DNA from: Candidatus Williamhamiltonella defendens
GTDB lineage: Bacteria > Pseudomonadota > Gammaproteobacteria > Enterobacterales > Enterobacteriaceae
Assembly: GCF_900699045.1 (NCBI RefSeq)
Contig: NZ_CAADHL010000001.1
Coordinates: forward strand, 1-64,000
Direction of reading: 5' to 3'
DNA: 64,000 bases
The notes under the pieces are model-generated. The model was not told where the DNA came from and made no database searches. It was given only the letters and a program-made list of their open reading frames with translations. Position 1 is the first letter of the stretch. Each line of letters opens with the position of its first letter. The position numbers were made by a program, and so were the translations under genes. Below, in pieces: positions 37,861 to 57,087 of this stretch.

Positions 37861-38813
37861 TTAGATTTGTAAACTAAATTCTTTCAATAATGCTTTCATC
37901 CATTGATGACCATTATCTCTATTAGTTGATTTATGCCAGTTGAGATCACATGCACGTGTCGCATTTTCCTAAGGCAGTTCGACTAATTTTAAGTTAAGCC
38001 TTTTACTCTGTTCCTGTACCAACCAACGAGGCGCAATTGCGAAAAAATAAGTTTGAGATATAATATTGAGCACACTACTCATATCTGTACTTTCTATGCT
38101 ATTGATTGCGCACATTGCATTAGAAATGTAGTAATGTTCGCTGAAAGATCCTGTTCATTCTATGAAACAATAGCATTCGCTTCATTAAACAGATCATCGG
38201 AAAAGATGGTATCGCCAATACGTGGATGATGCTTTGAAACTACTAAAAGAAGTGCATCATTAAATAAAGGTATTTGATGAAAATCTGAACACTCAAATTC
38301 AGAATAACTGATCACAAATTCATGTTGCATGATAACGTAGCTGATGTTCAATTTTATCATTTAAAGATGAAATAACCAGCTGCGTAATTAGGTGCTGATT
38401 GTTTAATATGCTTGAGTATTTGTGCGGTTAATCAAACATCTAAAAGACTACAAATAAATAAATTAAATAAACGTGTGCGGGTTTTATGTTAAAAACACGC
38501 ACCCGGCGATTTATTATGTACTAATTGTAACGCTTGACGTACAGGTCAAAAGAGTTGACGGGTCCGCAATGTAGGTTGTATGCCACGCTCATAGCGTAGA
38601 AATAATTCATCGTTCAACATCACCTTTAAGCAAGCAACGGCGTTTCTCACTACAGGTTATGAGATACCGAGTAAATTCGCCGCTTTTGTCACATTTTGCA
38701 TTTTCATGACAGCATAAAACACTGTCAACAAATTGAGATCAAGATTTCTTAAATGGATGTCAAATGATTTTTTTGGCTACTTGATTAACAGTTAATAAGT
38801 TATATTCAGACAT
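37861..38813 (-). pseudogene. leuO: LeuO, LysR-type global regulator, broken
   Basis: Debris spans the full gene. From ATG 38813 come HLRNLDLNLLTVFYAVMKMQ, VTKAANLLGIS and [14 protein letters not shown]. In the middle is HEFVISYSEFECSDFHQIPL with LLLVVSKHHPRIG. At the end are APRWLVQEQS, DLNWHKSTNRDNGHQWM and KALLKEF. These match E. coli LeuO piece by piece. Several stops and frameshifts. LeuO counters H-NS silencing in enterobacteria. It sits near mraZ, as in E. coli (leuO, ilvIH, cra, mraZ), with the genes between deleted. Confidence 0.88.
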
Positions 38814-39640
38814 GCTTAACGGCAATAAGTTTTCATGCAGATGATCCTGTAAAAGAAAGCGTCGCTAATGCCAACATCATAAAATGAATGACACTTTATA
38901 TATCTTGCAATTAATAGAATCGATGATCTTTCTTTTTCTATTAAAAATAATTGAATCCCATCCGGGTAGAAAGTATGAATTTTTTAATTTCCAATAATTT
39001 TTATTAAAATAAATCGTCTATAATATAATAAATAAAATTAAATAATTTTAAAAACCAATCAATAAATTAGGTTATTTTACAAAAAATTATTTGTTAAAAA
39101 ATAAAAAATGACTTTTCTTTTATTAAAGAAAGTTTATTTAACTTAATGTTATTGATTCATCTTATCTACCTCGTTAAAATCAATAAAATAATAGTAAGAT
39201 AATTTAAAATTATATGATACATAAAAGCATTGAAGAGATAGTTTTTTAAAATGGATAAAATATAGAAAATTCACTCAGGATAATCAAAAAAATAAAACTT
39301 ATTCTTATAAGATTGCAATATATAAAAATTTCACTTTACGGTCATTTAAAAAGAAATTTGATTCTTTTATTAATTCTTAATTATTGATAAAATCAATATA
39401 TCACTTTTATTTTTTATTTAATATCAATTAAACAAAAATTTTTTCTTATTATTTTATATCAAAAAAAATATTTTCAGCCGTCTTTATCATACATAAAGAA
39501 ATATTCTCTTCTCTTTTTTGCAAAAGATATTATGGTTGAATAAAATTTATTTAAATTTGAGATTACCATTTATTTTTAATAATCTTTGAACAGGCTGTGT
39601 GAAAACCGCCGATATCACTTATTATATTCACACTTATTTT
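38814..39640. other. Extremely AT-rich spacer, no gene recognised
   Basis: Over 800 bases dominated by A/T runs with stops in every frame. In E. coli the leuO upstream region is a curved AT-rich H-NS target, and some of this may descend from it. No promoter or RNA can be named. Confidence 0.5.
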
Positions 39641-39965
39641 CCTTTTCTAATTGTAGACAGCATTATTGAGTCTTCACCATAAGTGTCAGCAATTTTGATG
39701 CCGGTATTCACTGAAATCAGCACATCATGATTTGCTATAGGTTAATTTCGTTGGTCTGTGACCATGATAGTAAGAGCGTAAGAATCTTTTCTGTTGGAGA
39801 CAGGATAAGGACGAACAGTTTTTATGTTGGTGATCTTAGATAGAATCGCTATTTCTGATGTATCATGCCACTCAAATGAGATTTTATTTTTAGAAGGAAT
39901 TCCCGTGGCGCTAGACACTTCAACGGGCACCAGCACATTGACTCGATATTTTTTATTTTACCGAG
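39640..39965 (-). pseudogene. Fragment with a Big-1/invasin-like domain
   Basis: On the minus strand the frame reads VLVPVEVSSATG, KISFEWHDTSEIAIL, then DSYALTIMVTDQRN, stop, PIANHDVLISVNTGIKI. The run LTIMVTD-N-PIANHDVLISV resembles the Big-1 Ig-like repeat (LTVTVTDANGNPVANQ-V) of invasins and inverse autotransporters. Both ends are missing and a TAA interrupts it. The identity is a pattern match by eye; any secreted Ig-like protein is possible. Confidence 0.4.
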
Positions 39966-40079
39966 CGGTTTCGATTGTTCTTATCTATTTAGCATTTTTC
40001 ATCTTTATATATCCAAATAATATCGGCTTCATTAACATAAATCGTTCTTCTTAAACTAAAATTATCGTCTTTATCAAAA

Positions 40080-40104
40080 AAATTTAAGCCCTGTATTCAG
40101 GGCT
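40080..40104 (-). terminator. Rho-independent terminator of the 88-residue ORF
   Basis: On the minus strand AGCCCTG, loop AATA and CAGGGCT form a perfect 7-bp GC-rich stem, followed by TAAATTTTTTT. The ORF stop codon lies at the foot of the stem. One of the clearest terminators in the window. Confidence 0.75.
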
Positions 40105-40350
40105 CGATACTTTTAATTTATTTGGAATATCTGATAAATGTAAAAACTCACCTTTTGATATGAGAGTGACTCCATCTAACTGTAATAAATAGAGAGTACC
40201 CTGCACATTAGGCGGATGCCCATAAATAGCGCTAGTTTTTCCACTTAATATCATAAAAGCAGATCCATAAAATATTAAAGCGAGATAGCCCGATAAAGAA
40301 ACATAGATTTTCTTTTCAAAGAACAAAATGATCACAACCAGAATTGTCAT
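40084..40350 (-). CDS. Small membrane protein of unknown function
   Basis: 88 residues, open, starting MTILVVIILFFEKKIYVSLSG. Two hydrophobic segments (about 2-12 and 19-35) are followed by a 50-residue soluble part with PPNVQGTLYLLQLDG. I recognise no family. Its stop lies within the stem base of a strong terminator, which argues that this was a true last gene of a transcript. It is the only open frame of note between 37.8 and 42.8 kb, surrounded by pseudogenes. It may be intact or the end of a longer dead gene. Confidence 0.4.
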   Translation of the reverse strand: MTILVVIILFFEKKIYVSLSGYLALIFYGSAFMILSGKTSAIYGHPPNVQGTLYLLQLDGVTLISKGEFLHLSDIPNKLKVSSPEYRA

Positions 40351-40721
40351 ATTATTTATTGTTTCGAAAAAATCTGCAGAGCATTTTTATGCTCTTCATT
40401 CATTCTTAAAAAACAAAAGCACTTTCAATCTACAGTCAAGTTAAACCCATGTGCCCCATCTGCAGAATTAGTGCTCTTTTTAGCTTCTTTATTATTTAGC
40501 ATAATGAAATTTCTGTTGAATATTTTCGTTTTAAAAACTTTTGTAGGGAAAGTGATATTATCACTAGCACTCTGTCCTAATAAACGCCACTCATATCATT
40601 ATTAGAACAAGCGAAATGCTGGAAGCGCCAAATAGACTACCTGATTAAACGCAAATTGAAGTTATTGAAGTGTAAAAATTAAATTTGCACAAATTATGAA
40701 TGATTTTTCTGTGGAAATAAT
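40351..40721. other. Spacer upstream of the cpxR remnant
   Basis: No gene can be named. In Yersinia-type gene order cpxP lies here, divergent from cpxR. I looked for CpxP motifs on the minus strand and saw none. Confidence 0.4.
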
Positions 40722-41409
40722 ATGACAATACGTAAAAGTAGATGATAATAAAGAGCTGACTACATTATTAAAATCATTTCTTGAGATAGAATCTTTTGAG
40801 TTAATAGTAGCTCATGATGCAAAAGAAGCATTTAGTTTATTAGATAATTTTATTAATGTGGTGTTAATCGATACTACCATAAAAAATGAATGGTATTTAT
40901 ATATTAAAAGCATTAAGAAAAAATTATGAAATGCCAGTCATTTTTAGGTCAAACTGACAGCAATTTAGATTTAATACTTTCTTGAGAGTCAGCTGCTGAT
41001 GATTATTTGGCTAAGCCATTTAATAATTATAAACTCATTACTCGTATGCGTACTGTTTTACGACATACTGCTTCGAATGAAACAGAAGAAATAAAAATCA
41101 AGCCTAAAAGTATCGTCAATATAGATTGATCTACAGCTTAATTTAGGAAAACAAGAGGCTTGTTTTTCAGGACACGTGTTAGATTTAACAGGTACTAAAT
41201 TTTCTTTATCTTATTTTGTAGAAAAAATATAAGGCAGGTAGTATCAAAAAAGCAAATTAATAGATATTCGGTAAACATTTAGCGCCTTTTAATCATACCA
41301 TTGATATACATATTTCTCACCTTCGTCGAAAATTGCCTGAACACAAAGACCGTTTCCTCGCTTTAAGACGTTGTGTTGGCGCGGATATTTAATGGTCGCA
41401 GACGCGTAA
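40722..41409 (+). pseudogene. cpxR: CpxR, envelope-stress response regulator, broken
   Basis: Pieces in order: VDDNKELTTLLKSFLEIESF, LIVAHDAKEAFSLLD, then AADDYLAKPFNNYKLITRMR, SIVN..LNLGKQEACFSG, HTIDIHISHLRRKLPEHKDR-like segments in changing frames. It ends FKTLCWRGYLMVADA, stop. These match E. coli CpxR from the phosphoacceptor region to the C-terminal winged helix. Many frameshifts and stops. The sensor gene cpxA, which should follow, has been deleted, bringing trmL next to it. Confidence 0.88.
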
Positions 41410-41467
41410 CGAGCTTCATAATTTAGTAAATTCATATCTTCGGTATCGTTAGATTTGAATTATAACT

Positions 41468-41970
41468 ATGAAAAATTTATTAAATATTGTTTTATTCGAA
41501 CCAGAAATCCCTGCTAATATAGGCCATATTATCCGGTTATGTGCTAACAGCAGATGCATCTTTACTTTATGAAGTCGTTAGGTTTTGCTTTAAGTAACCA
41601 AAGATTGTATCTTTCGGGGCTTGATTATTACGAATTTACTGCCGTGAAGCAGCTATCTGACTATCAATCTTTTCTTAATAATGAAAGATTTTATAATACA
41701 TGTGTTGCTTCATTCTTTGCTTTAAAAACCAAGATTGTTCTCTATATAGCGACGTGTATTATCAAAAAATAATTATTTACTGTTTAGTTTAGAAACTCGG
41801 GGGTTGCCTTCTAGGCTTATTAATTTTTTGCCGGCCGAAAAGAAAATAAAAATCCATATGCAACCAATAGCCGTAGTATAAATCTTTCTAATGCAGTTTC
41901 TATTGTGATTTATGAAGCTTGGCGTCAATTAAATTATATTGGCGCTATTTTGTTTAAAATTCTTTTATTT
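41468..41970 (+). pseudogene. trmL: TrmL, tRNA (cytidine/uridine-2'-O-)-methyltransferase, broken
   Basis: Starts MKNLLNIVLFEPEIPANIGH and IIRLCANS, then LSGLDYYEFTAVKQLSDYQ and YLLFSLETRGLPSRLI, followed by [30 protein letters not shown] in shifted frames. These are the SPOUT-family motifs of TrmL. At least three frameshifts. TrmL modifies the wobble base of two tRNA-Leu species in E. coli. Its position after cpx is the Yersinia/Serratia order. Confidence 0.88.
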
Positions 41971-42019
41971 AAAAATTTGAGTTTTTTAGAAGATACTTTT
42001 TTGTCGTGTCAGATGTTGT

Positions 42020-42656
<637 letters not shown>

Positions 42657-42830
42657 AAAAACCTATAAACGAAGCTAAAAAAAAGAGAAAAAGCATAGCT
42701 TATTTTTTAAAAAAATCCTAGGCGCAGTTTTCAGATGGAAGTCAAAATGAATAAAAAATCTGTTTTAATTACAGTTAATGCGTATTTATTATGGTGAAAT
42801 ATCTGACAGAAAAAATGGTTTCAAAAAATT

Positions 42831-56031: not shown

Positions 56032-57087
56032 ATGTTTAAAACAATATGCTTGAAAAAATTACTCTCTTCTGCTATTGTAGGAGTGATTATTGGTAGTATA
56101 TTTTTAATATTCACCTCCACGTCTCCTTTTTCTTTTTTTAAAGAGATCCCCTTTTTAAATTTTACTAAAAATCAAACCCCTATTAGTTATGCACAAAGTG
56201 TGCAGACCGCCGCACCGGCAGTAGTGAATGTATATAACAGTAATATCAATCGGGCTCCAGAACTGGGATCCGGTGTTATTATAAGTCACAAGGGTTACAT
56301 TATTACTAATAAACATGTGATTAATCATGCAGATAAAATTATTGTGGCTTTACAGAACGGGCAAATTTACGAAGCTTCGCTGATAGGTTCAGATAGCTTA
56401 ACAGATTTGGCGGTATTAAAAATTGATGCAGACAACCTTCACGTTATTCCAATGAATCAAAATCGTATCACTCGTGTTGGTGACGTCGTCCTGGCGATAG
56501 GAAATCCTTATAATTTAGGCCAAACAATCACCCAGGGTATTATCAGCGCGACAGGTCGTGTGGGTTTGAGTGGCTCAGGGCGTCAAAATTTTTTACAAAC
56601 CGATGCCCCAATTAATCAAGGTAATTCCGGGGGAGCCTTAGTGAATACCTTAGGTGAGCTGGTAGGTATCAATACATTATCTGTTGATACCGCTAAAAGC
56701 TATGGACAAGTACCAGAAGGAATAGGATTTGCCATTCCAGCCGCTTTGGCCATTAAAGTGATGCATAAGTTGATCCTACATGGGCGTGTTATTCGTGGTT
56801 ATATTGGTATCGCAGGGAGCGATTATCCCCTATTTTATGAGGATAAGCAAAATCATTTCCGTGGGATTAAAGTCAATCATGTTTCACCTAATGGGCCTGC
56901 TGTTCTATCCGGAGTACAGAAAGGCGATATTATTTTAAGTTTGAATAATAAACGCAGCCATTCTACTATTGAGACCATGGATCAAGTAGCAGAAATCCCG
57001 CCTGGTAGCCAGATCCCTATTGTTGTTCTACGTAATGGTAAAAATATCAATTTAAACATCACTATTATTGAAAACCCCTATAATTAA
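56032..57087 (+). CDS. degS: DegS, regulatory serine protease of the sigma-E pathway
   Basis: Membrane-anchored periplasmic protease that cuts RseA when its PDZ domain senses unfolded porins. 351 residues (E. coli 355). One N-terminal membrane helix (about 10-30), catalytic His in IITNKHVINHAD, Asp in SLTDLAVLKID, Ser in INQGNSGGALVN, and one PDZ domain (about 255-345). A single PDZ and the anchor mark DegS, not DegP or DegQ. No degQ upstream. A membrane-stress sensor kept while Cpx is lost. Confidence 0.94.
   Translation: MFKTICLKKLLSSAIVGVIIGSIFLIFTSTSPFSFFKEIPFLNFTKNQTPISYAQSVQTAAPAVVNVYNSNINRAPELGSGVIISHKGYIITNKHVINHADKIIVALQNGQIYEASLIGSDSLTDLAVLKIDADNLHVIPMNQNRITRVGDVVLAIGNPYNLGQTITQGIISATGRVGLSGSGRQNFLQTDAPINQGNSGGALVNTLGELVGINTLSVDTAKSYGQVPEGIGFAIPAALAIKVMHKLILHGRVIRGYIGIAGSDYPLFYEDKQNHFRGIKVNHVSPNGPAVLSGVQKGDIILSLNNKRSHSTIETMDQVAEIPPGSQIPIVVLRNGKNINLNITIIENPYN

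Follow-up and report, generated by a model that had tools for sequence, protein, structure and literature searches.

The Cpx two-component system was very probably lost in two stages in a lineage of host-restricted symbionts, and the window, the whole stretch of 64,000 nucleotides of Candidatus Williamhamiltonella defendens DNA analysed here, represents the second stage. The sensor gene cpxA disappeared before the response regulator gene cpxR, CpxA is absent from both genomes of the genus that were compared, and cpxR has been under selection in one of them and decaying in the other. The draft genome (G000) amounts to 1,439,146 bp in 13 contigs, and contig 1 begins with the window. The window is compared below with G001, the sole genome of the same genus among the 29 relatives drawn, which is composed of a chromosome of 2,110,331 bp and a second contig of 59,032 bp.

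Three neighbouring genes in the window are pseudogenes. On the forward strand at 40722–41411, cpxR can be followed end to end by nucleotide alignment to the intact G001 gene, with 624 of 687 aligned bases identical, seven internal frame-breaking indels, and two in-frame stops. A spacer of 54 bp (41412–41465; 68 bp in G001) lies where relatives have cpxA, and no cpxA remnant is seen within it in the alignment to G001. The gene for the tRNA 2'-O-methyltransferase, trmL, follows on the forward strand at 41466–41975 (442/502 bases identical to intact G001 trmL, nine internal frame-breaking indels). Independently of the alignment, a TIGR00185 search returned two overlapping trmL matches, 41480–41866 and 41551–41943, with stops in both; the debris scores 62 bits with four stops and in no single open frame reaches the cut-off of 190.6 bits. 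Likewise, the CpxR model NF008199 has no match to the debris in the genome at 1e-55, and its cut-off is not reached in one open frame. No open frame spans cpxR or trmL in the three forward frames of 40600–42150. On the reverse strand, sanA debris with approximate ends at 41901–42680 overlaps the end of trmL, an arrangement shared with G001 (669/746 identical, four internal frame-breaking indels). The original prediction, made from the window alone, that cpxR and trmL remain traceable from end to end with no cpxA between them, is borne out by these alignments. The decay of cpxR and trmL is in itself ordinary gene decay.

Beyond the pseudogenes, maeA and metG are intact, with zero indels in the same comparison with G001 (1619/1689 and 1551/1638 bases identical). 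The roughly 2.4 kb to the left of cpxR (38160–40600) contains short open reading frames only, is 88–91% identical to G001, and probably consists of further pseudogenes. Within it, a junction at 40595/40596 marks the absence of 7,275 bp that G001 has just upstream of cpxR: window positions 39025–40595 match G001 up to 1638121, and the match from 40596 onward begins at 1645397. The junction is clean, and its flanks are collinear with G001 apart from small gaps. Missing from the window are the end of rcsD, an interrupted rcsB, and an inverse-autotransporter ORF of 796 amino acids. In G001, rcsB is split by an opposite-strand reverse transcriptase of the group II intron type (L109:4223–7248), the ORFs of which carry group II intron maturase and HNH domains in two frames, and matches to rcsB resume beyond the insertion.

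The corresponding genes in G001 are open and adjacent. Its cpxR encodes 234 amino acids and scores 348 bits against the CpxR equivalog NF008199, above the cut-off of 341, and an open trmL lies 68 bp downstream, with a product scoring 218.5 bits on TIGR00185 (cut-off 190.6) and 266.8 on the more restricted NF007683 (cut-off 282). No CpxA match adjoins cpxR in G001, and a CpxA query found no ortholog genome-wide, the best kinases being at most 30% identical. With that query, no cpxA ortholog was found in the window or in its genome, where the sole match, at 26% identity, is to a kinase remnant interrupted by seven stops; the same query recovers full orthologs in two other genomes, G002 (89%) and the one from which the query was taken, G012. 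Neither genome of the genus contains the cognate CpxA kinase/phosphatase of a Cpx two-component system. Because G001 has an intact cpxR–trmL pair and no cpxA anywhere, cpxA was lost first, in the common ancestor of the two genomes before their split, which left CpxR an orphan; this timing rests on one comparison, since two species of the genus were compared. The original prediction had described the Cpx system as erased in this DNA with cpxA deleted. Genome-wide CpxR, CpxA, response-regulator, and HATPase searches found no intact cpxRA elsewhere in G000, and that possibility is rejected. Erasure therefore stands for the genome, but the loss of cpxA was not part of it, being ancestral as judged from G001.

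Selection on cpxR has differed between the two lineages. The readable G001 CpxR and the debris differ at 47 places, polarised by 11 other CpxR proteins in a count that excludes indel-touched codons and the G001 stop codon and includes two changes to stop. Thirty-five of the differences are derived in the debris (one to stop), seven are derived in G001, and five are unclear; the seven of 42 depart from equal rates (P = 1.5e-5). By codon position, the substitutions between G000 and G001 are distributed 26/14/23 in the cpxR debris, compared with 15/13/42 in maeA and 21/10/56 in metG (Fisher P = 6e-4 for the contrast between the debris and maeA/metG). The 35 derived changes against seven indicate that orphan cpxR has been under selection in G001 and decaying in the window lineage. 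Our inference from these sequences is that, for most of the period after the two lineages separated, the debris was drifting while the orphan CpxR of G001 was conserved.

The order in the ancestor was presumably cpxR-cpxA-trmL. This order is drawn from other genera, where trmL is present beside cpxA, because trmL was not found near cpxRA within the 14 and 13 kb taken from G081 and G202. In a CpxR tree, G081 has the CpxR nearest to that of G001 (support 87/69, modest), with a full-length CpxA beside it. The arrangement had been put forward as a marker of Yersinia and Serratia, a view that does not hold: a CpxA-like kinase is found within the 1.5-kb flank in 12 of the 20 trmL loci compared, which come from relatives in the family and in the order (identity is at least 56% in seven of the 12, including the locus of the query's own source), so the neighbourhood is widespread and is the mark of neither genus.

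Decay in the window's genome extends to the other two-component genes. A HisKA profile search of G000 matched two places, one of them over the cut-off, and a HATPase search matched seven, four of which are GyrB, ParE, MutL, and HtpG. The HATPase matches on contigs C5 and C6 are broken kinase remnants, and a further HATPase_c remnant (G000:C4:16383–16538), in a 94-amino acid frame with a stop, has no match to any of the four kinases of G001. All six response-regulator matches are partial, frameshifted, or interrupted by stops. Compared with G001 proteins, the remnants correspond to an SsrA-like kinase and SsrB-like regulator (L125), BarA (L123), ArcB (L124), an EvgA-like regulator (L126), and ArcA (L127); no remnants of UvrY or the EvgS-like kinase were found in the G000 stretches taken. 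The searches of G000 found neither a histidine kinase nor a response regulator that is intact, and on this evidence the genome has no intact two-component system. G001 has SsrA/SsrB-like proteins, BarA, UvrY, ArcA, and ArcB, the last matching its profile only from position 272, together with EvgS- and EvgA-like proteins that score below their cut-offs; four of its kinases are hybrids (ArcB, BarA, SsrA-like, and EvgS-like). Whitefly Hamiltonella is described with a truncated SsrAB, a BarA fragmented in one strain, and an ArcB lacking PAS and carrying a premature stop (PMC5322557). Like it, G000 has broken remnants of the SsrA/SsrB-like pair, BarA, and ArcB, and these remnants, with the G001 kinase set and an ArcB matched from position 272, fit the aphid and whitefly Hamiltonella of that report; unlike what is reported there, no two-component gene found in G000 is intact. 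The main text of the report has no words beginning with cpx (PMC5322557).

The sigma-E pathway of G000 is in better condition. The trigger protease gene degS is intact on the forward strand of the window at 56032–57087, as originally stated, and its product of 351 amino acids scores 523.5 bits on NF008147 against a cut-off of 408. Elsewhere in the genome, rpoE, rseA, and rseB lie next to one another as open frames, so the loss of rpoE or rseA that would have counted against the original prediction has not occurred. RpoE scores 288.7 bits against a cut-off of 236 and RseB 369 against 368. At the end of this locus, rseB is followed directly by lepA (L122:5008–5011, about position 244010 of contig C1), so rseC is missing there. 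The suggestion that envelope stress sensing depends on sigma-E alone is plausible because no intact two-component system was found, and it is supported by the open frames of all four genes; it is weakened by RseA, an open frame of 201 amino acids that scores 150 bits against a family cut-off of 263.

The separation of CpxR from its sensor recurs in the family. In a sample of 295 genomes, with E cut-offs of 1e-55 for CpxR and 1e-50 for CpxA, CpxR matches occur in 206 and CpxA matches in 201; five genomes (G001, G049, G091, G107, and G222) have CpxR without CpxA and none has the reverse. The 201 CpxA matches include two or three broken genes (G095, G141, and G202), with CpxA read gene by gene in one set of 16 genomes and one of 14, and G041, which is 49% complete and scores weakly for CpxR and CpxA alike, was still counted as a match. 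The state of cpxA was compared among the 13 CpxR-bearing genomes of at most 2.2 Mb (rounded sizes). Beside cpxR there is no trace of cpxA in G001, G107, or G222; the gene contains several stops in G049, G091, and G141, is partial with a broken frame in G095 (a 0.5-Mb genome), and forms two overlapping pieces in G202, a draft of about 170 contigs. The kinase has diverged in G113 and G295, where the first ~140 residues do not align to CpxA. CpxA is full-length in G067 and G101 and nearly so in the draft G063. The ORF at the cpxA position in G113 (L214:3408–4586, 392 amino acids) is 43–44% identical to CpxA only from residue ~142 and seems to be a sensor without a periplasmic part. In G107, a 1.2-Mb genome, a gap of 544 bp (L213:4722–5265) that has no long ORF separates cpxR from genes that on reading by eye are cysE and gpsA, at a place where G012 has trmL and cpxA.

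CpxR has fared better in the same 13 genomes, and CpxR without an intact CpxA persists in G001 and several other small-genome genera. The CpxR frame is open over its full length in 12 of the 13, the exception being G091 (L207), where the DNA-binding domain is identical to the reference at 86 of 100 positions and the first 56 residues, phospho-acceptor included, are missing; on account of this shortened frame, the G091 orphan may itself be decaying. The cpxR of G222, which lacks CpxA, differs from that of G295 at 41/13/84 sites by codon position over 231 codons, mostly at third positions. A CpxR tree was built from 19 of 44 rows (the 14 survey rows and five of the 30 others), in which G202, G113, and G295 were counted as having kept cpxA; with G202 coded either way, six changes account for seven cpxA losses (bootstrap range 5–7). 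The figure of six is rough, and only two changes are forced, because two of the 16 inner branches are well supported and the end branches of G001, G049, and G107 are very long. The cpxA losses are no more clustered on the tree than in shuffles. The sensor-first pattern in related symbionts is modestly interesting and partly expected, given that cpxA is the longer gene.

The receiver of CpxR has sites that we take to be the acid pair D8/D9, the phospho-acceptor D51, the switch residue T78, and K100. The G001 protein keeps D8, D9, D51, and K100 and so lacks the complete set only through a glycine at position 78. All 30 reference rows (the best-scoring CpxRs of the NF008199 family search) and 13 of the 14 survey rows have threonine there, with glycine only in G001. 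The window debris also reads glycine at codon 78 in the alignment, so the T78G change predates the split of G000 and G001. Without the switch threonine, the protein could be weakly active instead of locked on.

CpxA is both a kinase and a phosphatase. When E. coli lacking cpxA is grown in glucose minimal medium, acetyl phosphate causes phosphorylated CpxR to accumulate, while CpxA acts as a net kinase in urine (PMC9045377). Considering the dual role of CpxA together with this accumulation, CpxA loss can turn Cpx output on in a manner dependent on metabolism. The symbionts resemble the deletion mutant in having a CpxR that, without CpxA, may be phosphorylated by acetyl phosphate; they differ from it in that the mutant is a laboratory construct and not an evolved state, and its effect holds for glucose minimal medium but does not extend to urine (PMC9045377). 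In the proposed history, stage one would precede the split: cpxA would be lost from the order cpxR-cpxA-trmL, the switch threonine would become glycine, and CpxR would remain useful as a regulator without a kinase. In stage two, confined to the window lineage, cpxR, trmL, sanA, and every two-component gene found would have been released from selection and decayed. The orphan CpxR of G001 and several small-genome genera is predicted to be a hard-wired DNA-binding regulator, always partly on, that would either draw on acetyl phosphate where Pta remains or act independently of phosphorylation. Pta is intact in 12 of the 13 genomes searched, G000 and G001 among them, and is missing in G107; acetyl phosphate from Pta cannot explain the CpxR of G107, which lacks Pta and carries D9N. 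Constitutive activity of orphan CpxR, including that of the ancestor of the window's genus, is given about an even chance.

Comparable cases have been described in other insect symbionts. In Moranella endobia, cpxR is kept, cpxA is a pseudogene, and constitutive activation has been suggested (PMC3620526). The response regulator outlives its sensor kinase in both cases; unlike Moranella, in which cpxR is intact, the window has lost cpxR as well, and G001 shows no trace of cpxA and has an altered switch threonine (PMC3620526). Sodalis glossinidius PhoQ is similar in that sensing is lost, the regulator is in use, and constitutive output is predicted, although PhoQ there is present and insensitive, whereas here the kinase gene is gone (PMC3207850). 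CpxR has also been detected in Serratia symbiotica (PMC5426354). A literature search that covered few subscription papers found the same state, CpxR without a working CpxA in a symbiont, only in Moranella (PMC3620526), and a search for orphan CpxR together with CpxA returned no report.

Two alternatives concern the window itself. Errors of assembly or sequencing might have broken genes that are truly intact, and the draft state of G000, in 13 contigs, would allow for this; the reading is hardly credible, since maeA and metG come through the same G001 comparison without an indel, whereas cpxR, trmL, and sanA have seven, nine, and four internal frame-breaking ones, and the substitution pattern in cpxR is near neutral. 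It is rejected on this comparison of indels and substitutions in five genes. Erasure of cpxR, cpxA, and trmL all at once in the window lineage would fit a locus in which all three are non-functional or absent, and is very improbable given that cpxR and trmL are joined and intact in G001 while cpxA is absent genome-wide; it too is rejected on those grounds.

The alternatives that concern the orphan regulator deserve more weight. Chief among them is that target size and drift produced the sensor-first pattern and that each surviving cpxR merely awaits decay. At 456 codons against 232, cpxA is about twice as long and hence the likelier first casualty by chance; on length alone, six to eight independent losses that all begin with cpxA have a probability of (2/3)^6 to (2/3)^8, or ~0.09 to 0.04, which is not negligible. 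The two forced changes on the tree and the truncated CpxR of G091 also fit this account. It is nevertheless the less likely course, as the changes after the split (7 in G001 against 35 in the debris) show constraint on G001 cpxR and the cpxR of G222 has changed chiefly at third positions despite the lack of CpxA. In a second account, the G001 orphan is not hard-wired and is driven by cross-talk from a remaining hybrid kinase, for which the four such kinases and the retained D51 provide the means. This seems unlikely, though the evidence against it comes from G107 and is not direct for G001: in that genome, where a first search with the CpxR model gave one candidate and no CpxA-like kinase matched at 1e-5, CpxR has been retained, so retention does not in every case depend on a donor kinase.

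A broader and more doubtful form of the hard-wiring proposal is offered tentatively. Selection may keep CpxR after CpxA is discarded across several insect-symbiont genera; loss of the phosphatase might leave the stress programme permanently on, through acetyl phosphate or because receiver changes (T78G and D9N, for example) remove the need for phosphorylation. CpxR might then be the last response regulator to remain before its own loss, as in the window. The two-stage reading replaces the mere statement that Cpx has been lost with an ordered history, in which the sensor is lost first and the regulator later, with G001 and several other small genomes at the intermediate stage. Whether the loss of a sensor locks a symbiont's stress response on becomes testable with natural orphan cpxR genes.
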